A DNA stretch of 28,721 nt from a virus. Shown piece after piece: positions 4,081-23,078 of this stretch (within the stretch, counting starts at the first letter, position 1; the number at the start of each line of letters is the position of its first letter). Both the position numbers and the translations under genes were made by a program. Under the pieces are notes generated by a model that made no database searches, had not been told where the DNA came from, and saw only the letters and a list, made by a program, of their open reading frames with translations. Location: the IMG/VR virus record IMGVR_UViG_3300031227_000293, positions 1-28,721 of that record; one strand, 5' to 3'.

Positions 4081-5548
4081 TATTCCCCTCCTTCAGTATC
4101 TTAGTGAGTTCTTTCAATCCCTTGGTGAGTTTAACCGAGGCTGATTCTATTGGTTCCTTGTTGGCCAGCACCTCGTCCGGATTATTAATCCCCAAGGTGG
4201 TAAGTATCAGTTTACGCAGCGGGTCACCGTCCAGTTCCGGCATGGCATTGATGACCTCGATTATTACTTTAATCTTCTCGTTCGAGTCCTTCTCGACGAT
4301 CGGAGGGAAGTCGATATCGACGAAACGTTTTACCTCGGCCACCCCATTCTTAACCATGACGTAGTCGAATATATTATCATACACGTCAGCCCACAGCTGC
4401 TGGTATGCCTCGAACTGGACTCGCATCGGCCGTTCCATGGCCGTCGCGGTTGCTAATCGGAAGGCTTCGCCGGCGCCGAAGTAATGAGGGAACACGCCGA
4501 CTGCCGAGCCGAATATCTGCAATAACATATTTGCGTCGACCTGGGCAGCGCTGGCGCCCGTCTCAGTCTTGATAGGTGAAAGGTTGTATCCCTCGTTCTC
4601 CACGAACGTCCCTCCTGGGGCGGACGGTGGGTTGGTCTCGCCGGAGCCTGTGGCAAGAGTGGACCTCCAGTCGTTCCGGACTGCGCTCACCTGCGCGGCC
4701 GAGCCCTTTATCTTGGCCTTCCATGCGAAGCGTGCCATGGCTTGAGTGATGGATGCTCTGGCCTCTAGGAACTTGCGATGCGCCTTGGCCCAGTCCATCC
4801 CGGAGAACAATAAGGAAACGCCTCGGACACCTAGACTGTTGAATGGGACGTGGTAGATTACGCCTTCCGCGGTCTTCCCTTTCGGTGACCCGCCGTAATC
4901 AGGCCATTCCCCGGTCCTGTCCGCTCCTTCGACAGACCAGTCCAGGTAGTATTGATCCTGTGTCTTGCCCTGAGCAGTAGTCCATTGCCGTCTGTAGAGG
5001 CGCTTGGTCTCTACGTCGTCAGGGTCTGTTATAATCTCGGTTATCTCGAGCGGGTCGATTCGGCGTAGCTTACACACGCCTGCAGCCTCGAATATTATAA
5101 AGAATATCTCGCCGTCGACGAGGAGTTGGTCAGATGATTTGCGCTGACCCTGGTTCGAGAGGATTGGTTCGTTCACCGGGGCCACCCAGAAGTCATGTAG
5201 TGTTTTCTTCGCCGTCTCGTCCTCCGCTGTCCAGGCTATCCCGCGGCCCAGTGCGTAGTCGGTCCATATCCGCACGGCTTGCTTGCTCAGCGGATCCCGG
5301 GTGAAGTACGCTCTTGCTCTACGGACGGAGTACATTCTGGTCATATCGGGGAGTCCGGACTGCTCGTTGAGTCCGAGCTTCATCCATCCTGCATCATCCC
5401 TGGCGAGTTCGAGTTCGGCGGTCCCGATACCGGCTTCGCGGAGGACCTCCTGTAATGCCTGGGAATAAATAACGCCCTCATCACCGGGGGCGTTGGCTTG
5501 CTTTATCATATCCTGGAGTACGCTTTCTGGAAGCCAGAAATCAGACAT
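4046..5548 (-). CDS. Phage portal protein
   Basis: This 500-residue protein forms the dodecameric ring through which DNA enters the capsid. Recognisable parts are the N-terminal helical stretch with FTRDPLSKQAVRIWTDYALGRG, the LLVDGEIFFIIFE strand, the RRIDPLEITEII segment, and the late AEAFRLATATAMERP and QLWADVYDNIFDYV helices. Its length fits portals of the lambda/SPP1 size class. The ATG at 5548 has GAGGT in front of it. It starts 18 bases after the encoded CCA end of the tRNA, and it ends in a four-base overlap with the MuF-like gene, so the three head genes are probably translated from one message. The family is assigned from order and motif resemblance. Confidence 0.88.
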   Translation of the reverse strand: MSDFWLPESVLQDMIKQANAPGDEGVIYSQALQEVLREAGIGTAELELARDDAGWMKLGLNEQSGLPDMTRMYSVRRARAYFTRDPLSKQAVRIWTDYALGRGIAWTAEDETAKKTLHDFWVAPVNEPILSNQGQRKSSDQLLVDGEIFFIIFEAAGVCKLRRIDPLEITEIITDPDDVETKRLYRRQWTTAQGKTQDQYYLDWSVEGADRTGEWPDYGGSPKGKTAEGVIYHVPFNSLGVRGVSLLFSGMDWAKAHRKFLEARASITQAMARFAWKAKIKGSAAQVSAVRNDWRSTLATGSGETNPPSAPGGTFVENEGYNLSPIKTETGASAAQVDANMLLQIFGSAVGVFPHYFGAGEAFRLATATAMERPMRVQFEAYQQLWADVYDNIFDYVMVKNGVAEVKRFVDIDFPPIVEKDSNEKIKVIIEVINAMPELDGDPLRKLILTTLGINNPDEVLANKEPIESASVKLTKGLKELTKILKEGNNGHNKTEVLSL

Positions 5549-5566
5549 TGGTTACCTCGCATAAAT

Positions 5567-5642
5567 TGGTAGCGGAGGTGGGATTCGAACCCACGACCTC
5601 GGGATTATGAGACCCGCGAGCTTCCAACTGCTCCACTCCGCG
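5567..5642 (-). tRNA. tRNA with CAU anticodon, initiator (fMet)-like
   Basis: A complete 76-base cloverleaf folds on the minus strand with an encoded CCA. The acceptor stem has six pairs (2-71 to 7-66) and an unpaired C1/U72, the mismatch that marks bacterial initiator tRNAs. The D stem is GAGC/GCUC, giving A11:U24, also an initiator trait; elongator tRNA-Met has the opposite orientation. The T arm is GUGGG-UUCGAAU-CCCAC. The anticodon loop is CUCAUAA. The anticodon stem has the three G:C pairs at 28-30/40-42 rather than 29-31/39-41, with U31 facing U39 next to the loop, which is unusual for an initiator. It lies five bases after the terminase stop and 18 bases before the portal start. Confidence 0.93.
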
Positions 5643-5647
5643 TCTCG

Positions 5648-7090
5648 CTACCTCACAAAATCGTCCGGGTCCGGGGCTATCTGGCCCATGTCCTCGAGTG
5701 CATCGTGGACTATTATCTTCTCTGATGGCGGGGGTATCTTGCCGTAATCCCATATATCCGCTATTCCTTCTACGAATGCATCTACTATATCGTCGTGGAC
5801 TCCGGCTGGGAAGGTTGTTAGTTCCTCTAGAAATATAGCAAGCCATTCAGCCTGCTCGGGGAGGCTTACCCTTCCGGCCTCCACTATCCCCGTTATTTGA
5901 TTCGCCCTTATCTCTTTACTACCAATAGGTGTTATTGGAATTATAGGCAAACTGGTGTCTCTTGTCAAGGTTTGTATCAATGGCGTGCCTGATGCGGCGT
6001 CCTCGCATTTCAATATATTCGGTTTCCATAGTCCGAATTGTGCATTTACCTGCCGTAGTAATTCCGGGAATTCCACCTTCCCTCTCCAGATATCAAGGAC
6101 GCATATCCCCCTGGCATGCCGTCCCAAGGTCACGCAGACGCTGTAGTCGGTCTTGGCGCTCTTCTTGAAAGCGGTATCCCAGTACTGCCCTACCATCTCG
6201 AGCTGCGGGGTGTCCTTGTGTGTCGCCCACCAGTGGTCCTTGAATATGTTCCCACCCTCTTTCACCGGCCTTTGCTGGTAGAGGGAGAGCCAGTTCCGTC
6301 CCTCTTTACCACCTACCGCCTCGGCGATATCCTGGAGTGATTCCACGTCGTAGCGTTCCGGCCAGAGTGCCTGCCCTTCCTTGCGCCCGAGTTGGTCATC
6401 CAGTTCAGCTATGGCCGGCAGGTTGACGATGTCCCACTTGTCCGGCTCCCGGGAGGTTATCCGCCCGACGATATCATCGGTGTGCCATCTGGTCATGATG
6501 ATTATAATGGAAGCTCGGGGCTCGAGCCTGGTATATGCTGTGGTTTGATACCATTGGTCGACCGCCTCTCGGTAGACTGGGGAGTATGCCTCGGCGTAGT
6601 TCTTTATCGGGTCGTCGATGATGAGGAGGTTAGCGCCCTTGCCTGTTATGGGCCCTCCGACTCCGGCGGTCCACATTCCTCCCCCGCTCTTTAGTTCCCA
6701 GTGTGCGGCTGCGGAGCTGTCCATACTCACTCGGATATTAAGTTTGTCCTCGTTATCTTGGATGCCGTTCCTGGCCTTCCTCCCCCAGTAGGCTGCGAAT
6801 TGAGCCTCGTAGCTGGCGAAGATTACCTTGCTCGTCGGCCATTCATTCAAGAACCAGACGGGAGTCCAGTGGGAGCAGAGTTCGCTTTTACCATGTCTCG
6901 GAGGCAGGGTGATTATCAGGTGTATCGGGTGATCCCGCATCTCTGCTATCTTATCGGATATCAGTTCCAGGTGAGGCGCCAAGTACCACAATCCCTCAGA
7001 GAGCGTTGCCGCGCAGTCGGCGGGCTTGTCGTAGTGGTTCCCCTTGGACTGGCGGCCGAGGGCCGTTGCCATTGAGAGTTGCTGTATCAT
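5648..7090 (-). CDS. terL: Terminase large subunit (TerL)
   Basis: This 480-residue packaging motor pumps DNA into the prohead and cuts it. The ATPase has a Walker A-like LPPRHGKSE (62-70), a Walker B LLIIDDP (155-161) and a coupling motif MTRWHTDD (199-206). The nuclease is the RNase H-like fold, with WDTAFKKS (Asp304), KCEDAASG (Glu363) and VHDDIVDAF (Asp433/434) supplying the acidic triad. The layout fits the TIGR01630/Terminase_6C group. An in-frame GTG at 7108 would overlap the ParB-like gene by 17 bases without a ribosome site. The ATG at 7090 begins just after that gene's TAG and is preferred. A TerS candidate exists only about 8 kb away, at 15412-16053. Confidence 0.95.
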   Translation of the reverse strand: MIQQLSMATALGRQSKGNHYDKPADCAATLSEGLWYLAPHLELISDKIAEMRDHPIHLIITLPPRHGKSELCSHWTPVWFLNEWPTSKVIFASYEAQFAAYWGRKARNGIQDNEDKLNIRVSMDSSAAAHWELKSGGGMWTAGVGGPITGKGANLLIIDDPIKNYAEAYSPVYREAVDQWYQTTAYTRLEPRASIIIIMTRWHTDDIVGRITSREPDKWDIVNLPAIAELDDQLGRKEGQALWPERYDVESLQDIAEAVGGKEGRNWLSLYQQRPVKEGGNIFKDHWWATHKDTPQLEMVGQYWDTAFKKSAKTDYSVCVTLGRHARGICVLDIWRGKVEFPELLRQVNAQFGLWKPNILKCEDAASGTPLIQTLTRDTSLPIIPITPIGSKEIRANQITGIVEAGRVSLPEQAEWLAIFLEELTTFPAGVHDDIVDAFVEGIADIWDYGKIPPPSEKIIVHDALEDMGQIAPDPDDFVR

Positions 7091-10862: not shown

Positions 10863-11648
10863 TCAGTCTCTTGCAATCCACCAGTCCCAGAGTTCCTGGC
10901 CGGTCTTTCCCGTGTGCTGCCCCTCGATTCCCTTCTCGCGCCAGCGTTCGACGATGTGGTCACATGCCCGACGCCAGTTTGCCGCTATCTTAGGCCAGTA
11001 TTCTATCTGTCTCGCCACGTCCCTGCTAAACGGGCAGAGGACGCAACCGAGCCGTTTGAAGTATCCTTCACCATACCCCTTCCTATTCTCTGGAGCGCCC
11101 TCGTCGTATAGGTAACAGTACGGCAGGTTGTTTTCACGTATGTATTGCCAGATGTCGTGATCGTCGAAGTCCACGATCGGGCGTAGCATAAACTTGCCCT
11201 TCTTTAGCTTGACGTAGCACTCCTGGCTCTTGCGCCGGGGGCTCTCGGCCCGCCGATTGCCGACCACGACGGTGCGCCCCTCGCCGCCTGCTTCCTTGAT
11301 AACCTCGCAGCACCACCTTCCTTTCCTCATGGGTAGTGCTCGCTTTGCCACCATCTTGAAAAAGCCTCGGGCGTGATAGTCCCATTGGACGTCTGGGTAG
11401 TGGTCTTTTATGAATCGCTGTACCTCCGGCGGATCAATCGGCGCCACGCTGTAGTGTGCATCGAACTTGACACCGGCCTTGACGGCCAGATCATAGATAG
11501 CCACGCTATCCTTGCCACCGCTGAATGCCAAAAAATAGCCGCCAACCGGTTCGTATGCACGAAGGAGAGCTATCGCCAGTTCTACTTTCGTTAGGTTAGG
11601 TGGTTGGTTAGGAATTTCATGGAATAATGTCTGCTGCTCGAGTGCCAT
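10863..11648 (-). CDS. PAPS-reductase-like PP-loop enzyme (CysH/DndC superfamily)
   Basis: This 261-residue protein has the PP-loop SGGKDS at 43-48, which binds the adenosine nucleotide, as in PAPS/APS reductases and ATP-dependent sulfur transferases. Two cysteine pairs, RWCCEV (113-114) and GCVLCPFSR (202, 205), are placed as in the [4Fe-4S] members of the superfamily, including DndC of DNA phosphorothioation. Other family blocks are VVGNRRAESPRR and LRPIVDFDDHDIWQYI. No DndB, DndD or DndE partner is visible here. The enzyme may make a sulfur-containing DNA or tRNA modification, or support host sulfur metabolism; this is inference. The ATG at 11648 shares one base with the stop of the RHH gene before it, so the two are coupled. 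Confidence 0.88.
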   Translation of the reverse strand: MALEQQTLFHEIPNQPPNLTKVELAIALLRAYEPVGGYFLAFSGGKDSVAIYDLAVKAGVKFDAHYSVAPIDPPEVQRFIKDHYPDVQWDYHARGFFKMVAKRALPMRKGRWCCEVIKEAGGEGRTVVVGNRRAESPRRKSQECYVKLKKGKFMLRPIVDFDDHDIWQYIRENNLPYCYLYDEGAPENRKGYGEGYFKRLGCVLCPFSRDVARQIEYWPKIAANWRRACDHIVERWREKGIEGQHTGKTGQELWDWWIARD

Positions 11649-11785
11649 TATCGTTCCCCGTTCCTCAGCTTCTGGAGTTCCTGGAGGAGCCGGATGATTA
11701 ACTTGTCGTAGGTCTCACCGAAGTTGCCCTCTGATGTGAGCTGGTCCCGGGTCTCTGTAGATATCTGGATGTTAGTCTTGGGCAT
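11648..11785 (-). CDS. Ribbon-helix-helix-like small protein (45 aa)
   Basis: This short product has the sequence pattern of an Arc/VapB-type ribbon-helix-helix DNA-binding protein: a beta strand NIQISTETRDQL, a turn with GETYDK, then a helix LIIRLLQELQKL. GGAGG stands nine bases before ATG 11785; the in-frame extension to 11902 would run through the next gene and lacks a ribosome site. It is coupled to the PAPS-reductase-like gene by a one-base overlap, so it may regulate its own operon. No toxin partner is evident. Confidence 0.65.
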   Translation of the reverse strand: MPKTNIQISTETRDQLTSEGNFGETYDKLIIRLLQELQKLRNGER

Positions 11786-11808
11786 GCCGGTTATCCTCCT
11801 CCCTTTGT

Positions 11809-12015
11809 CTATGGCCGTGCTACCGCCAGGCTCACATGCTCGGGGCAGTAGTCGTGGATGCCGAAGTTCGCCCTGCATTGCCCGCATAGAGGGGCGTCGC
11901 ATGTATGTCCTGGGGTGATTTCGTAGTCGCAGAGGAAGGGAGCGAACGCCCCGCAGACGGCGCAGCCTGGTGTCTGTACTGGCTGTTTTCCGTTCTCGCA
12001 GGTTCCGTTCGGCAT
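11809..12015 (-). CDS. Cys-rich zinc-binding small protein (68 aa)
   Basis: The product has eight cysteines and two histidines in 60 residues: CAVCGAF, FLCDY, HTCDAPLCGQCRANF and YCPEH. The arrangement resembles a cross-brace (RING or B-box-like) zinc fold. It is the first gene after the strong promoter at 12054-12082, and GAGAGG precedes the ATG at 12015. No specific family is claimed. Confidence 0.7.
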   Translation of the reverse strand: MPNGTCENGKQPVQTPGCAVCGAFAPFLCDYEITPGHTCDAPLCGQCRANFGIHDYCPEHVSLAVARP

Positions 12016-12053: not shown

Positions 12054-12082
12054 ATTATAATCCTTGTATGGGGATTTGTCAA
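12054..12082 (-). promoter_or_regulatory. Consensus sigma-70 promoter
   Basis: On the minus strand a perfect TTGACA (12082-12077) is separated by 17 bases from a perfect TATAAT (12059-12054). Transcription would begin near 12047 and reach the Cys-rich gene at 12015 after about 30 bases, then the PP-loop enzyme and the accessory genes behind it. It lies directly after the stop of the frameshifted small gene. Confidence 0.88.
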
Positions 12083-17219: not shown

Positions 17220-17235
17220 TGATTTCACCTCCATT
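17220..17235 (-). repeat. Repeated 16-base leader, copy 1 (copy 2 at 17499-17514)
   Basis: The minus-strand sequence AATGGAGGTGAAATCA occurs identically here and at 17499-17514, each time as the ribosome-site leader of a small gene (starts at 17218 and 17499). The repeat suggests a local duplication of the leader or selection for equal translation. Confidence 0.8.
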
Positions 17236-17241
17236 TTATTA

Positions 17242-17499
17242 CTATTCCACGACTTTGCAATGCCTTAGTTCTACCCACCGAGGTAGTTCCCCCATTCGTA
17301 TCAATAGGAGCGTTGTCATCCTATCAGTTACCCCGACGACCGTCCAGACCTTGTTTTCCATGTCGCCGTAATCCCCAACAAAACCCCGCCGCCTCATTTC
17401 TCGCCACTGAACCTCACTTACCCCCACGTCAGAAGCCTCGCCCTTTCTTGATGTTTCAAGAAATTCAACCGTGACATTGAACGGTATTAATTTCAACAT
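17242..17499 (-). CDS. Hypothetical protein (85 aa)
   Basis: The product starts with a beta strand (MLKLIPFNVTVEFLE), has a charged middle (VQWREMRRRGFVGDYGD) and ends in another beta pair (VWTVVGVTDRMTTLLLIRM). No family is recognised. GGAGG eight bases before ATG 17499 lies in the repeated leader. The neighbours are a RusA-type resolvase upstream and a one-TM protein downstream. Confidence 0.6.
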   Translation of the reverse strand: MLKLIPFNVTVEFLETSRKGEASDVGVSEVQWREMRRRGFVGDYGDMENKVWTVVGVTDRMTTLLLIRMGELPRWVELRHCKVVE

Positions 17500-17512
17500 G
17501 ATTTCACCTCCA

Positions 17513-17887
17513 TTATTCTATTTCCTCGACCGTGATTATTGTCTCGTCCCTGTCGGTATAGGTAGCCTTGACCTGACCGTACTCCAAGTGCTTGGCATCG
17601 TCAAACCGGATAACTCCGACATCAATAAGGCCGTCGGTAAATGGTTTACACGCTGCCAGCAAATTATCCAAGTCCCGGGTGCGGTTACCCTTAAGTAGAA
17701 ACTCATAGCTGATACGCGCTCTGGTCATTGGTTCAGCATTCTGCCATTGTGAAGTAGCCAGCCAGCCTATTTCTTCTCTGGCAATCTTTGATACTCCGCT
17801 TCTTACGCTCCAATGTGTAGACCTCAGATTATTAGGGTTTAACTCTGAGTACGGTAAGTGCGGAATGATTATCGTTATCTCTCTCAT
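17513..17887 (-). CDS. RusA-like Holliday junction resolvase
   Basis: This 124-residue protein has the RusA pattern: LPYSELNPNNLRSTHW near the start, the core RTRDLDNLLAACKPFTDGL with its conserved Asp and Asn residues, then GVIRFDDAKHL carrying the paired Asp. RusA enzymes cut four-way junctions as dimers and resolve recombination or packaging intermediates. The length is normal for the family. It follows the replication protein and a conserved hypothetical gene. The ATG at 17887 follows an AGGT-type weak site. Confidence 0.92.
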   Translation of the reverse strand: MREITIIIPHLPYSELNPNNLRSTHWSVRSGVSKIAREEIGWLATSQWQNAEPMTRARISYEFLLKGNRTRDLDNLLAACKPFTDGLIDVGVIRFDDAKHLEYGQVKATYTDRDETIITVEEIE

Positions 17888-18347: not shown

Positions 18348-19193
18348 TTACCTATGCACCAAGTGGCCGTACTTTCCCTTGATATACTTGTCCGGGTCGA
18401 TTAGCGGCTTAGAGCCGTTCCGCGGGGTCTCGCCGATATCCTCGTTGACGTAGACCATCGACTTGTATTGCTGTGACTTCTCCACCTTCTTGATCCAGCA
18501 GGCAAGGATGTCTACGATCGTGAAGCCCCGGTCAAGCATTCGCTTTATGGCCTTGCCTTCCTTGCCATAATTAGGCACCGGGTCCTTGTCCGTCCTTTCA
18601 GGGAAACCGTAGTAAGCATGAATTCCTTTGAATACATCGTCTACCCTGTGGCGGGCAGGGGGCTTGTCCCCTGCAAGTGTAGTATTAATATTCTTTGGAG
18701 TAGTCTCTGTTGTAATCTCTGACGTGGTCTCTGTTACAGTTCTTTCCCTTTGGTCGATTTGGTGATTGCCCTTTGGTAAAGTAACCACTGCGAGTTGTTC
18801 ATTTGGAACTTCACCTTTGGTAAAGTTGGAATTTACACCCTCTAGTAGTGCATTGATATTAAGCCAGATATGAATCGAGGGACTCCCCTTGAACCGGTAC
18901 TTCTTTATTTCGATTAACTTTAGGTCAGATAATATCTTTGCGGCACGGTCAAACTGCTTGGGGCTTATCCGGCATTCCTCCCACCACTCGGTCCTTCCTT
19001 TGGCAAGCCACATCCTGTCTTCCTTCTCGACTCTTAACTTGGAGCCGTGTTCCCCTGGTATAAACCAGTAGATAATCTGGCTCAAGAGCAGGCCGGACAC
19101 CAGGTCACCGGCGATGTCTATATAACAACGTTTGACATCGATGGTATCCCTGCTGGCCCTTTCCCACTCATAGAACTCTTCCTTCGTCAGCAT
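18348..19193 (-). CDS. Replication initiator-like winged-helix protein
   Basis: The N-terminal 120 residues match the helix-turn-helix seen in phage replisome organisers: GDLVSGLLLSQIIYWF, then WWEECRISPKQFDRAAKIL with a winged strand LIEIKKYRFKG. A Thr/Glu-rich linker (TVTETTSEITTETTPK) separates it from a C-terminal domain (YYGFPERTDKDPVPNYGKEG, MLDRGFTIVDILACWI) similar to those in DnaD-type loaders. The probable role is origin recognition and helicase loading. It overlaps the HNH gene before it by seven bases; AGGGGGGCAG lies ahead of ATG 19193. No iteron-like origin was seen. Confidence 0.75.
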   Translation of the reverse strand: MLTKEEFYEWERASRDTIDVKRCYIDIAGDLVSGLLLSQIIYWFIPGEHGSKLRVEKEDRMWLAKGRTEWWEECRISPKQFDRAAKILSDLKLIEIKKYRFKGSPSIHIWLNINALLEGVNSNFTKGEVPNEQLAVVTLPKGNHQIDQRERTVTETTSEITTETTPKNINTTLAGDKPPARHRVDDVFKGIHAYYGFPERTDKDPVPNYGKEGKAIKRMLDRGFTIVDILACWIKKVEKSQQYKSMVYVNEDIGETPRNGSKPLIDPDKYIKGKYGHLVHR

Positions 19194-19498
19194 AATCTGC
19201 CCCCCTTCTTAAGATTGCAGGCGACGCAAGATGGCACGAGGTTTTCGATGGTATCTGGCCCGCCCTTGGATAGTGGGATAAGGTGATCGACTTGGAAGTC
19301 CTTGAATGGTTTGAGTGCCCGCCGACAGTGGTAGCATATCCCCTCGGTTTTGTCCCATACGACAGCCTTGATTTTATTCGTTATCGTCATGCGGTTGCTC
19401 GGCTCTGGGCAGATTTGCCGGGGTCGCTGTTCTGGGTGTGGTCGTCCGGTTATCCTCTCGTAATCCTCGAGAGAGTAGAATAGCTTGGAGCCCTGCAT
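19187..19498 (-). CDS. HNH endonuclease
   Basis: This 103-residue protein ends in an HNH domain: ICYHCRRAL, then VDHLIPLSKGGPDTIENLVP (His-Asn core), then SCVACNLKKGG. The two CxxC pairs bind the structural zinc and the histidine is the general base. An AAGGGGGG site precedes ATG 19498. It stands in the early region with a second HNH gene at 19705-20040. HNH proteins here may act in packaging or DNA processing, or be free-standing homing nucleases; the position does not decide. Confidence 0.92.
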   Translation of the reverse strand: MQGSKLFYSLEDYERITGRPHPEQRPRQICPEPSNRMTITNKIKAVVWDKTEGICYHCRRALKPFKDFQVDHLIPLSKGGPDTIENLVPSCVACNLKKGGRLC

Positions 19499-19502
19499 CT
19501 GG

Positions 19503-19649
19503 TTAACCCCCCTTATTATCTTTTACTATGAGCTGGGACAGATAGGCCGGCACCTTGATGCCCAGGTATGTGGCCTTCTTGGTGGCCATGTCCCAGACGC
19601 GCGGTTGGAATCGTATGCTGCGCGGGACAGCCATGGTCTGTTTGTTCAT
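19503..19649 (-). CDS. Ribbon-helix-helix-like small protein (48 aa)
   Basis: A short frame from ATG 19649 with CAAGGAGG upstream. The product shows a strand SIRFQPRVWDMATKKA, then a helix with IKVPAYLSQLIV, consistent with a ribbon-helix-helix DNA-binding protein. It is the first gene after the promoter at 19673-19701, so it may regulate that promoter. Confidence 0.7.
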   Translation of the reverse strand: MNKQTMAVPRSIRFQPRVWDMATKKATYLGIKVPAYLSQLIVKDNKGG

Positions 19650-19672: not shown

Positions 19673-19701
19673 ATTGTAGACCTATCGTAGTCGTTTGTCA
19701 A
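19673..19701 (-). promoter_or_regulatory. Early promoter 3 of the AACGACTAC family
   Basis: TTGACA (19701-19696) and TACAAT (19678-19673) are 17 bases apart. The spacer begins AACGACTAC, as in the promoters at 20843-20872 and 22969-22998. It drives the RHH-like gene, HNH, the replication protein and RusA. The -35 begins three bases after the TAG stop of the HNH gene 19705-20040. Confidence 0.87.
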
Positions 19702-19704
19702 CCC

Positions 19705-20040
19705 CTATTCTGTCCTGTGTCCATCCGGTCCGAAGTGGCACGGCGCGCACCATATCTCAGTATTGGACCTTTCCGTCTTACCGCCTTGCGATAATGCGAT
19801 AAGGTGTACCAGCTGCAGGCACCGGAAGTCTGGGAGTTCCCCGCAGTGCTGGCAGAGGGGCTGGCCGTTCTCATCGTGAGGCCCCTCCGCTAGTAGCTGC
19901 TTCTTTAGCTTACTGCGCCGGGTCAATTCCTCTTTGCGTCTTACTTGTTGAGGGCTAGAACGGGATGTCTTCGGGGAATAAATCCTCAGTGGTGACTTTG
20001 TCTTCAGTGGCGTTTTTCTTTTCAGCGGACTCTTGCGCAT
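19705..20040 (-). CDS. HNH endonuclease (NinG-like basic N-terminus)
   Basis: The first 55 residues are strongly basic (SPLKRKTPLKTKSPLR), a tail common to phage HNH and NinG-like proteins. The HNH core reads LCQHCGELP, then LQLVHLIALSQGG, SNTEIWCAPCH and GHR. The usual D-H pair is V-H here, but the histidine is kept. The ATG at 20040 lies 86 bases inside the end of the SSB-like gene in a different frame, without a clear ribosome site; the basic tail still supports this start. Probable role in DNA processing. Confidence 0.85.
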   Translation of the reverse strand: MRKSPLKRKTPLKTKSPLRIYSPKTSRSSPQQVRRKEELTRRSKLKKQLLAEGPHDENGQPLCQHCGELPDFRCLQLVHLIALSQGGKTERSNTEIWCAPCHFGPDGHRTE

Positions 20041-20725
20041 TGATATACTCCCATGCCGTCGTTCTCATTGCAGTTGTTGCCAGGTCAATCCCCGGATACT
20101 TTGTGGCTATCTTTTCTTTAGTAAGCCCGTGCGCTTTCTTGCAGGTATTGTAGAATGTTTCAAGCCCATCGCTAACGCCATCAGATTTGGCATCGGTCTG
20201 GCCAGGTCCTGGCGGGCTGTATGCCTTTCGTGAGTCTGGAACTGGCTGGCCGATAGTGAAGTGAGCCATTGCCCAATCAAGAGCGGCATCAAAGATGGCT
20301 AGGAACTTCGGGCTACAAACTTCCCCTTCTCTAGGCGGTTCTTTTGCTAACTCAACGATCCCCATGAAACAGGTATTACATTCTCTGCTCCATCGTTCCA
20401 ACCTGTCCTTCTCGGCCCAGTCGGTCTTGCTCATGTCGCTACTCGGCCCGGGGGTTCCCTTAGAATTAAAAGATGGCTCATTCGCTGAGGCCCCTGCTGG
20501 TAGTGATATCAAGGTAAACTTCTTGAACTGGAACTGGCCCTCATGCTTCTCGTCCAGGGTGATGGACTCCGGTTCGATGACCGAGCCGTGCCGGATAACC
20601 CCCGCACCTTCCGCGAGGGTGGAGTAGGTCTTGCCGTCGGCGCTAACGATCTTATAAAGCGACCAGTCGCCGTATTGATTCGTTCCTTCCTTTAGTAGGT
20701 TGATGGTTTCTACTATGATATGCAT
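19955..20725 (-). CDS. SSB-like single-strand DNA-binding protein
   Basis: This 256-residue protein begins with a beta-rich OB-like segment (WSLYKIVSADGKTYSTLAEG, FQFKKFTLISLP), has a central Cys pair and helices, and ends LFPEDIPF. An acidic C-terminus closing in DIPF is the protein-interaction tail of bacterial SSB. The role is probably to coat single strands during replication or recombination and recruit partners. GGAGGAG precedes ATG 20725. It is the only gene directly behind the promoter 20843-20872 and its 120-base leader. No exact SSB family member is claimed. Confidence 0.7.
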   Translation of the reverse strand: MHIIVETINLLKEGTNQYGDWSLYKIVSADGKTYSTLAEGAGVIRHGSVIEPESITLDEKHEGQFQFKKFTLISLPAGASANEPSFNSKGTPGPSSDMSKTDWAEKDRLERWSRECNTCFMGIVELAKEPPREGEVCSPKFLAIFDAALDWAMAHFTIGQPVPDSRKAYSPPGPGQTDAKSDGVSDGLETFYNTCKKAHGLTKEKIATKYPGIDLATTAMRTTAWEYINAQESAEKKNATEDKVTTEDLFPEDIPF

Positions 20726-20744
20726 TGATTTCTCCTCCTTACTA

Positions 20745-20773
20745 TTGACAGATTGGTATTTCCGTTATAGAAT
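20745..20773 (+). promoter_or_regulatory. Candidate antisense promoter in the SSB leader
   Basis: On the plus strand TTGACA (20745-20750) is 17 bases from TAGAAT (20768-20773). Transcription would start near 20781 and run against the leader of the SSB-like gene, through the hairpin at 20808-20829. It is the only plausible plus-strand promoter noticed, and chance occurrence is possible. Confidence 0.35.
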
Positions 20774-20807
20774 ATTACTACATCTGGTTTCTCCTTTCAT
20801 AGGAGTC

Positions 20808-20829
20808 GGGAGGTCTGCCCTGGCCTCCC
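20808..20829. other. Leader hairpin between the promoter and the SSB-like gene
   Basis: GGGAGGTC and GGCCTCCC form an eight-pair stem (one G-T pair) around a six-base loop. In the minus-strand message it lies about 20 bases after the start site and without a T run, so it is not a terminator in that direction. In the plus direction it is followed by a mildly T-rich stretch. Confidence 0.55.
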
Positions 20830-20842
20830 TTCTCCACGTCTT

Positions 20843-20872
20843 ATTTTATCACTATTTGTAGTCGTTTGTCAA
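20843..20872 (-). promoter_or_regulatory. Early promoter 2 of the AACGACTAC family
   Basis: TTGACA (20872-20867) and TAAAAT (20848-20843) are 18 bases apart. The 15 bases TTGACAAACGACTAC, followed by AAATAGTG, are identical to promoter 1 at 22969-22998. It drives the SSB-like gene. The -35 lies directly behind the stop of the winged-helix gene 20874-21200. Confidence 0.85.
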
Positions 20873-20873
20873 C

Positions 20874-21200
20874 CTATACAAGCACTCCCTGTATCGCCTT
20901 CTCGTAATGTCTGGCCGTGTTCTTTATGATGTGTCGCCGTCTTAGAAATATCCGGACCGCCCGGCTCTGCAGGCTTTTTGAATATCGCCTGGCCTCGTCG
21001 ACGCTGGCGGGGAAGAAGTATCCTGCAGGTTCGTCGGTGACGCTGCAAACTGGGAAGTCCCCGTCGATTAGCTTCTCTATTGCCATCCGGATTGGCCGGT
21101 CGTCGTCGTAGCCAAACCGTGCAGCGAGCGTGTCAGCCTTGATGGGGTTCTTGCGGCCGGTATGCTTCAGTATTATCATCCGTAGTTCGTTCGTTTCCAT
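20874..21200 (-). CDS. Winged-helix DNA-binding protein
   Basis: This 108-residue product follows a pattern common in phage early regions: ILKHTGRKNPIKADTLAARFG (helix-turn-helix), MAIEKLIDGDFPVCS, then the wing AGYFFPASVDEARRYSKSL and a final basic helix SRAVRIFLRRR. The probable role is transcriptional control or DNA-end binding; it cannot be decided. GGAGGGTAAAG precedes ATG 21200. It overlaps the possible zinc-ribbon frame 21133-21312 by 68 bases. Confidence 0.8.
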   Translation of the reverse strand: METNELRMIILKHTGRKNPIKADTLAARFGYDDDRPIRMAIEKLIDGDFPVCSVTDEPAGYFFPASVDEARRYSKSLQSRAVRIFLRRRHIIKNTARHYEKAIQGVLV

Positions 21201-21312
21201 CTTTACCCTCCGGTGGCCCTGGGTGGCATCTCCCGCATAACCACACCTTCGGCCCCCAGTAATAGTCCCCTGGCCAGTACCAGTCGTCCCCTTGACAGGA
21301 CGGGCAGGGCAG
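21133..21312 (-). CDS. Zinc-ribbon small protein without a standard start
   Basis: An open frame carries LPCPSCQGDDWYW and VWLCGRCHPGPP, two CxxC pairs with the WLCGRCHP ending that is familiar from phage zinc ribbons. Upstream the frame has no ATG, GTG or TTG before it enters the coding region of the gene 21324-22064. CTG 21312, with AAGGAAG six bases upstream, is the best candidate start; a -1 frameshift from the preceding gene is the alternative. Confidence 0.4.
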   Translation of the reverse strand: MPCPSCQGDDWYWPGDYYWGPKVWLCGRCHPGPPEGKDGNERTTDDNTEAYRPQEPHQG

Positions 21313-21323
21313 TTCTGGCTTCC

Positions 21324-22064
21324 TTATGCCCTCGTCGCTAGATATGGTTTGTTGTAGAATCTGATGCCACCTATCGGCTTGCCATCGTGGTACTTCTTGG
21401 CTATCATTGAAAGCATAGCCTGGTCTACTATCAAGTATTCCCTCGGTACTTCTATCGGGTCAGTGATTTCAAATGTCCAGTGGTCTACCATACCGGAAGT
21501 GCCGATTGCGCCGTGTACTGCCTTCGGGGCGCTCACTGGTTCCACTTCAACGACTGACTGTGATAATTCGCCGGTGGCTTTCATTTCAGCCTGGGCCAGT
21601 TCGTTGGCTTTCCTATTGACTTCCTCTGCTAGTGCTCTAAGCCTGGCTTGCTCGGTAAGGAACGCCAGTTGCTTCCCCTTTAGTATCTGCTCGGCCCGTT
21701 CAACTGGTGCCATGATTTCTTTGTAGACAAGTTGTATGTCCTTGACAATATCTTGGTGGGGTGACAGATATTCCTTGCGTTTGGCTTCCATAGCTTTCTT
21801 ACAGGTGGCTATGCTGGCAAGGTCGCTTACCGCCAGTTTAGAGGCCTCAAGGGTGTTGATGGTCATGCTCTCGGCGTATTCCAGTAGCTTGATGGCGGTT
21901 CTCTGATGGTCCATGACCTCGGCATCACAGCCCGGGCGGTAGACCAAGTCTACCTCGGTTGCCGGTTCTACTACTTCGGGGATGTCGTTGCCGGTGGCGA
22001 TATTATCTCTTGCCCTCTGTAATCGTTCCTCTATTTGTTCTTCTATTGTCTTTTCGGGTCCCAT
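21324..22064 (-). CDS. Coiled-coil phage protein, recombination-module associated
   Basis: This 246-residue protein has a long central coiled coil (residues 80-170, with AMEAKRKEYLSPHQDIVKDI and LTEQARLRALAEEVNRKANE). Its C-terminal domain reads VDHWTFEITDPIEVPREYL, IVDQAMLSMIAKK and IGGIRFYNKP. That C-terminal block is widespread in phages beside SSB, RecT or Erf-type genes, and its function is unknown. AAAGGAGG stands four bases before ATG 22064. Its location near the SSB-like gene agrees with a replication or recombination role. The end of the gene is the possible source of a frameshifted zinc extension. Confidence 0.8.
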   Translation of the reverse strand: MGPEKTIEEQIEERLQRARDNIATGNDIPEVVEPATEVDLVYRPGCDAEVMDHQRTAIKLLEYAESMTINTLEASKLAVSDLASIATCKKAMEAKRKEYLSPHQDIVKDIQLVYKEIMAPVERAEQILKGKQLAFLTEQARLRALAEEVNRKANELAQAEMKATGELSQSVVEVEPVSAPKAVHGAIGTSGMVDHWTFEITDPIEVPREYLIVDQAMLSMIAKKYHDGKPIGGIRFYNKPYLATRA

Positions 22065-22207
22065 GCTTCCTCCTTTCCTCTATATGGTTTTCTGTAGGGC
22101 ATGCCGGCCAGCCGCCGGATAGTTACGTCGTAGGTCTCTCTTGGCTTCATCTCGCGCTCGATGCGGTCGACCGTGTCCTGGGCCAGCCGTATTACTTTGC
22201 CGTTCAT
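22043..22207 (-). CDS. RHH-like small protein (54 aa)
   Basis: The frame runs from ATG 22207, which shares one base with the stop of the preceding gene (TAATG), to TAG 22043 inside the next gene. The product shows KVIRLAQDTVDRIEREM, then ETYDVTIRRLAG, a strand-helix-helix pattern similar to the antitoxin-like RHH gene at 11648-11785. It ends in a basic stretch (YRKPYRGK). Confidence 0.65.
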   Translation of the reverse strand: MNGKVIRLAQDTVDRIEREMKPRETYDVTIRRLAGMPYRKPYRGKEEAWDPKRQ

Positions 22208-22485
22208 TATGCCGCCCCGCTGCAGAGGCCCTTCCAGTAATCCCTCATGCTGTCAGCTATCTGGCTTGACTCCTTGAGCTCGGCCAGGAATTCAGCCGCG
22301 CAGTCATCTCGGGCAGCGGCTTTGTAGGTCAGGTCTGACACCATACCGTTGCCATCCTTTAACTCTCGCCGAACGGCCTCCTGGAGGCAGCCAAAACGGC
22401 CGCAGGTTGTCGGGTTGTATCCTTCCTCGTGTGGGTAGCTTCGCCCGCAGATGGGGCAGTCCGATCTGGTCCATTCGTTGGTCAT
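22207..22485 (-). CDS. Zinc-finger small protein (92 aa)
   Basis: The N-terminus carries CPICGRSYPHEEG and TTCGRFGCLQEAVRREL, four cysteines in a treble-clef spacing. The C-terminal 50 residues are helical and acidic (DDCAAEFLAELKESSQIADS). No family is recognised beyond the zinc motif. GAGGAGGATAGT precedes ATG 22485, a strong site. It lies between the 47-residue protein upstream and an RHH-like gene downstream. Confidence 0.7.
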   Translation of the reverse strand: MTNEWTRSDCPICGRSYPHEEGYNPTTCGRFGCLQEAVRRELKDGNGMVSDLTYKAAARDDCAAEFLAELKESSQIADSMRDYWKGLCSGAA

Positions 22486-22519
22486 TACTATCCTCCTCTC
22501 CTTACTATTTTATCCTTTC

Positions 22520-22663
22520 TTAATTTCTGTTAAAGTCGCAGGGCTCTAACCATTCGACGGCTCTACCAAACTTATTCTCCAGCAGTCTATCCGCTAAGGC
22601 CGCCAACGCCAGTTCCCTAAAGACATCCTTTGCCTTGCCTTTACCTAAGAATATACAATTCAT
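22520..22663 (-). CDS. Small helical protein (47 aa)
   Basis: A frame from ATG 22663 with AAGGAGG four bases upstream. The product begins MNCIFLGKGKAKDVFREL and continues with an Ala/Leu helix (ALAALADRLLENKFGRA). No family is recognised. The strong ribosome site and position directly after a structured spacer support expression. Confidence 0.7.
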   Translation of the reverse strand: MNCIFLGKGKAKDVFRELALAALADRLLENKFGRAVEWLEPCDFNRN

Positions 22664-22690
22664 GTTTCCTCCTTCTTTCTTTAGGCTTAT

Positions 22691-22742
22691 CCGCTCACGG
22701 CACCGGGCGAGTCCTCCTCGCTCACCCGGTGAGTGTCAGCGG
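22691..22742 (-). other. Strong two-tier RNA hairpin between early genes
   Basis: On the minus strand CACCGGGTGAG (22731-22721) pairs with CTCGCCCGGTG (22711-22701), eleven pairs with one G-T, around a loop containing GAGGAGG. An outer stem CCGCT/AGCGG (22742-22738 and 22695-22691) flanks it. No T run follows, so it is not a classic terminator; a processing site, stability element or attenuator is possible. Confidence 0.75.
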
Positions 22743-22940
22743 TTAAACCATCCGCAGTATGTATCCGGCCATGCTGTGGATGTCCGTCGCTGGGCCTGTG
22801 CCTTCGATGTAAACCATGCCGCAGGTGCAGCGGGCCTTGGGGAAGCCGACCTTCCTGAGCAGTGCCTCCATCAGGGTCTCGTCATCAGGTCCGCTGGTGT
22901 TGGTATCCTTGAGGTTTAGTAGCCATTCTCGGTTATTCAT
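22743..22940 (-). CDS. Hypothetical protein (65 aa)
   Basis: First gene behind early promoter 1. The product has an N-terminal tract EWLLNLKDTNTSG, a helix DDETLMEALLRKVGF, a CTCGMVYIEG segment with one CxC, and a hydrophobic end. No family is recognised. AAGGAGG stands seven bases before ATG 22940. As the first early gene it may be highly expressed; its role is unknown. Confidence 0.7.
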   Translation of the reverse strand: MNNREWLLNLKDTNTSGPDDETLMEALLRKVGFPKARCTCGMVYIEGTGPATDIHSMAGYILRMV

Positions 22941-22968
22941 TTCGGTTCCTCCTTAACTCTCTATTAAC

Positions 22969-22998
22969 ATTGTAACACTATTTGTAGTCGTTTGTCAA
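22969..22998 (-). promoter_or_regulatory. Early promoter 1 of the AACGACTAC family
   Basis: TTGACA (22998-22993) and TACAAT (22974-22969) are 18 bases apart, with spacer AACGACTACAAATAGTGT. The block TTGACAAACGACTAC is shared with two other promoters. It drives the early operon starting with the gene at 22940 and lies 54 bases past the late-region hairpin. Confidence 0.88.
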
Positions 22999-23051: not shown

Positions 23052-23078
23052 GGACCCGGGGTGATCAGTCCCGGGCCC
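23052..23078 (-). terminator. Hairpin terminator candidate at the end of the late region
   Basis: GGGCCCGGG and CCCGGGTCC form a nine-pair stem (one G-T) around a nine-base loop. In the minus direction it is followed by TTACTATTTACAGG, a weak T-rich tail. It lies between the holin-like gene and early promoter 1, which is where a late/early transcript boundary would be needed. In the plus direction it is followed by TTTT after four bases. Confidence 0.6.

Follow-up and report, generated by a model that had tools for sequence, protein, structure and literature searches.

Three promoters of an uncultured phage share an operator-like 15-base block spanning the -35 element

The analysed window is the whole stretch of 28,721 nucleotides (positions 1-28,721) of the IMG/VR virus record IMGVR_UViG_3300031227_000293. 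It is linear and without end repeats, is likely a fragment of a phage genome, and has its main genes on the minus strand. Single-query searches of IMG/VR with TerL, a 246-aa protein, the helicase loader and the 48-aa RHH-like protein found no close relatives, and no close relatives of TerL were found in GTDB. The relatives recovered by TerL alignment are at best 44% identical and have hardly any other genes in common with the window. Outside the region described below, a tRNA-Met (CAT) is located between the terL and portal genes (5567-5642, minus strand), and ORF 5541-5846, which overlaps it, appears spurious.

Three gene units on the minus strand are preceded by near-consensus sigma-70-type promoters, here called P1, P2 and P3, each with a score of 11/12. 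P1 has its -10 element (TACAAT) at 22969-22974 behind an 18-nt spacer, with a TG extension. Its first gene encodes a 65-aa protein of no family (22743-22940), and the unit contains phrog_10477, annotated as an exonuclease (21324-22064). A hairpin with a T-rich tail (23052-23078, minus strand; -19.2 kcal/mol, z -3.8) is probably a terminator between the upstream gene block and P1. P2 also has a TG-extended -10 (TAAAAT, 20843-20848) and an 18-nt spacer; its first long gene encodes a 256-aa protein of no family (19955-20725), and an HNH protein (19705-20040) belongs to the same unit. In P3 the -10 (TACAAT, 19673-19678) follows a 17-nt spacer, one base shorter than in P1 and P2. The first gene of P3 encodes a 48-aa RHH-like protein (19503-19649), and the unit contains an HNH endonuclease (19187-19498), a DnaD-like helicase loader (phrog_6493, 18348-19193) and a RusA-like resolvase (phrog_34, 17513-17887). 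Two adjacent genes have an identical 16-base ribosome-binding region at their starts, AATGGAGGTGAAATCA (17220-17235 and 17499-17514, minus strand). The original prediction had grouped these promoters, with their early and replication genes, as a single regulon; the gene content fits (the phrog_6493 loader, the phrog_34 resolvase and two HNH proteins), and the three units can reasonably be taken to be early.

The leader of P2 (20843-20725, minus strand, about 110 bases) has features of its own. It contains a GGGAGG/CCTCCC hairpin and a GGAG resembling a Shine-Dalgarno sequence ahead of ATG-TAG (20783-20778), possibly a start-stop element. A plus-strand promoter-like sequence, TTGACA-17-TAGAAT (20745-20773, 11/12), faces P2 from within this leader, and may give rise to an antisense RNA or form a pair of face-to-face promoters.

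An identical 15-base sequence, TTGACAAACGACTAC, is present at all three promoters on the minus strand: box 1 at 22984-22998 (P1), box 2 at 20858-20872 (P2) and box 3 at 19687-19701 (P3). Each copy consists of the -35 element and the first nine bases of the spacer. After boxes 1 and 2 both promoters read AAATAGTG, giving a 23-nt block, TTGACAAACGACTACAAATAGTG, which extends to 22976 and 20850, respectively, and takes in the TG extension of the -10. At sites 2 and 3 the match reaches upstream over a GG (17 identical bases). Aligned on the -35, the three sites have unrelated flanks beyond the block. Box 2 starts 1 nt past the stop codon of the gene at 20874-21200, and box 3 starts just past that of the HNH gene at 19705-20040. 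The identity over the -35 and the start of the spacer, with its continuation in two of the three promoters, was thus found exactly as originally predicted. A search of the window for the 15-mer, which the prediction had proposed, returned only these three copies, each at a promoter with its -10 at 17-18 nt; none lay at a random position, and no further match was detected in the window at up to three mismatches.

Could strong promoters have come to resemble each other by coincidence? The window does contain other short repeats, but these have two copies each, and TTGACAAACGACTAC is its sole sequence of at least 12 bases with at least three copies. Nine window promoters of this class begin with TTGACA, and on this basis the chance of nine extra bases being common to three of the nine is ~2e-9 by base composition. 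Even when no promoter position was demanded, only one of 200 simulated windows (third-order Markov) had any 15-mer three times. When up to three mismatches were allowed, three matches were found, all of them exact, against 0.54 expected; a shuffle control in which 2 of 100 shuffles had three matches counts such mismatched hits and is therefore no test for exact copies. Coincidence can practically be dismissed.

Promoter spacer sequence is normally free. One explanation for its conservation is that the spacer itself improves the promoter, through a preference of the host polymerase or through a phage-modified polymerase. All three promoters are indeed strong and two have an extended -10, but the promoters at 12054 and 15386 match them in strength and have different spacers, which makes this very improbable. 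As predicted, neither of these two carries the box, with the caveat that 12082-12054 has TTGACAAA in common with it. The original prediction had offered an operator or a site contacted by a modified polymerase. Nothing found favours the second part, the promoters being near-consensus sigma-70 ones, while the first is favoured by signs of operator-like constraint (an identical -35 and spacer start, unrelated flanks, occurrence at promoters only).

A further explanation is that an early promoter was duplicated and spread as a cassette before several modules, with a spacer that no protein reads. Small exact blocks ahead of modules would suit such copying, and a possible precedent is found in L162, the nearest relative by helicase-loader alignment (57% identity), where a promoter of about 60 bases occurs twice in nearly identical form. 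In the window, however, the block ends before the -10 and reaches upstream only to the GG. P1 and P2 differ in their -10 and downstream sequence despite 23 common bases, and the leaders differ as well. Had a whole promoter been copied, its -10 would be expected to come with it, which argues for constraint on the -35 and spacer, and copied cassettes are accordingly unlikely.

The L162 promoters resemble those of the window in that several of them have bases in common over the -35, but the sequences are different (ACCCCTTGACAACC, GTAGCTAA) and two of the copies look like a duplicated promoter. Its shared block is a 14-mer, ACCCCTTGACAACC, located at three promoter-like sites, i.e. the two near-identical promoters and a third. 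The near-identical pair (L162:6800-6940 and 11510-11640) carries GTAGCTAA within the spacer and, upstream, either GTAGCTAA or GAAGCTAA. Among about 220 comparison phage loci, a repeated block of the -35 plus nine bases at promoters was found in three only (L013, L162 and L203). Such sharing is therefore no general property of strong promoters, and the L162 case indicates that the arrangement is uncommon yet recurs with other sequences. The block shared by P1, P2 and P3 is real, operator-like and very probably selected.

No literature on the 15-mer was found. In IMG/VR the exact 15-mer occurs in 46 contigs, mostly in apparent coding sequence that recurs among related contigs. A match resembling a promoter, one copy each, was seen in L030, L049 and perhaps L008 alone. 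A relaxed scan identified TTGACAATAGACTACAAATAGTCTATAAT in L140, where an HTH_26 gene and an integrase diverge on either side of it. Two perfect GACTAnnnnTAGTC palindromes lie between the HTH_26 repressor and integrase genes of this locus (L140:6102-6140), which is probably a lysogeny switch. The palindrome is matched at 9 of 10 bases by P1 and P2, and at 8 of 10 by P3.

The L140 locus raises the prospect that the box is an operator read by a Cro/CI-type (XRE) or other repressor, with the spacer palindrome GACTAnnnnTAGTC as the contact; the repressor gene would lie in phage sequence missing from the window, in a resident prophage or in the host genome. Sites 1 and 2 read GACTACAAATAGTG, which agrees with nine of the ten defined bases of the perfect, operator-like GACTACAAATAGTC that L140 has in the equivalent position behind TTGACA, and the window is likely a fragment. 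However, site 3 fits at only eight bases, and thus the half-sites are incomplete in every copy (9/10, 9/10, 8/10). The AAC between the -35 and GACTAC is also conserved although it lies outside the palindrome, and no XRE protein or integrase was detected among the window proteins scanned. The related motif GTTGACAANNGACTAC does not exceed its control in frequency, either in 299 genomes of the L142 family or in 46 of the L144 class. A repressor of this kind from elsewhere is unlikely.

L142 and L144 come from a scan of 84,980 genomes, which gave three matches, near the few expected by chance (an estimate). The L142 match lies in the promoter of a BlaI/MecI-family gene, has an inverted second copy and is identical to boxes 2 and 3 over 17 bases; the L144 match lies in the promoter of nrdR, and the L143 match in apparent coding DNA. 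The BlaI/MecI-type promoter (L142:5675-5731) carries GGTTGACAAACGACTACC and, inverted, GGTTGACAATTGACTACC, probably a double operator of the repressor. Two candidate explanations based on these matches were rejected. A host regulon was discarded because, seed genomes aside, GTTGACAANNGACTAC stood at or below the reversed control in the 299 and 46 genomes, and a BlaI/MecI operator because the motif was not found in the L142 family (299 genomes), so that L142 remains a single case. Together, L140 and L142 show that sequences of the -35/GACTAC type can sit at repressor-gene promoters; they are silent on the reader of the window box.

Candidate DNA-binding proteins are encoded inside the three units themselves. 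The main candidate is the 48-aa RHH-like protein (19503-19649, minus strand), whose gene stands directly behind P3: its start codon is at 19649 and the P3 -10 ends at 19673, 24 bases apart. The AlphaFold2 single-sequence model (mean pLDDT 68) has helices at residues 17-28 and 35-46 after an extended stretch. The assignment as RHH-like is plausible from this model, as the two helices are ordered as in RHH proteins. The phmmer hits were non-significant (NikA, E 0.78; Arc, E 1.3), neither a Pfam family match nor a significant Foldseek fold match was obtained, and no relative of the protein was found. The second candidate is the 108-aa protein at 20874-21200 (minus strand), which belongs to phrog_2113 (unknown function); its earlier winged-helix reading was not confirmed, and the predicted fold is too poor to use. 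The third is a 54-aa protein at 22043-22207 (minus strand), with a subthreshold match to DUF7557 and an RHH reading made by eye. The original choice of regulators from this same region hence stays plausible for the RHH-like helices of the first and the phrog_2113 membership of the second, but no link between these proteins and the box was found. A further RHH-like protein (PKTNIQISTETRDQLTSE...; 11648-11902, minus strand), also with a subthreshold DUF7557 match, is encoded downstream of the promoter at 12054.

Among known systems, the block is akin in kind to the operators of cluster A mycobacteriophages and to the early sequences of archaeal viruses, and is a member of neither. The immunity repressor of L5 and TipsytheTRex binds asymmetric 13-base operators whose orientation follows transcription, and some of these lie in promoter regions, where binding blocks the polymerase (PMC9283540). 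The L5 system has more than 20 sites, some of them intergenic (stoperators), and its repressor is a known protein of two domains. The window, in contrast, has three sites of a different sequence, and no known repressor. Sites outside promoters, as in the operator/stoperator system, were not found, all three boxes being at promoters, and general scans of window proteins gave no hit to an L5-type immunity repressor profile. Archaeal viruses such as SIRV2 have a conserved sequence around the promoter core that is common to the early genes within one virus, and an early DNA-binding protein, Aca8, is proposed to bring about shut-off (PMC11065993). These are, however, TATA/BRE promoters of many more genes, including anti-defence genes.

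The two promoter elements of P1, P2 and P3 are near consensus and an activator would be unneeded, which makes a repressor the natural user of the block. The preferred reading is that TTGACAAACGACTAC serves as an operator that, at three strong host-type promoters, covers the -35 together with the upstream spacer, and that a small DNA-binding protein represses all of them together; judged from sequence, its chances are about even. A small sequence-specific protein would bind the box at P1, P2 and P3 and block RNA polymerase, with the result that all three early/replication units fall silent at once. Its likeliest source would be the phage, from these same units, with the 48-aa RHH-like protein behind P3 as the first candidate. 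RHH autorepressors of the Arc and CopG type are very small proteins encoded just behind the promoter they block, and the 48-aa protein might likewise regulate itself negatively. The likeness is one of element order rather than of demonstrated homology, and the window box differs in having no clear half-sites. RHH proteins and most repressors bind repeats, and it counts against an operator that there are only three sites and that the box has no significant dyad or inverted repeat (95% of shuffles equal it).

Most likely this is a phage switch of an ordinary type, in a virus without close known relatives. A bolder form of the proposal, in which an early phage RHH protein only 48 residues long recognizes an asymmetric site of 15 bases with the -35 inside it and shuts all early and replication units at once, is distinctly improbable. 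If true, it would mean that a protein of Arc/CopG size performs the job of the L5 repressor. Through the shared block, a phage that lacks close relatives gains a testable regulon with three named small candidate regulators, and a block shared beyond the -35 is suggested as a means of finding co-regulated early genes in unannotated phage contigs.
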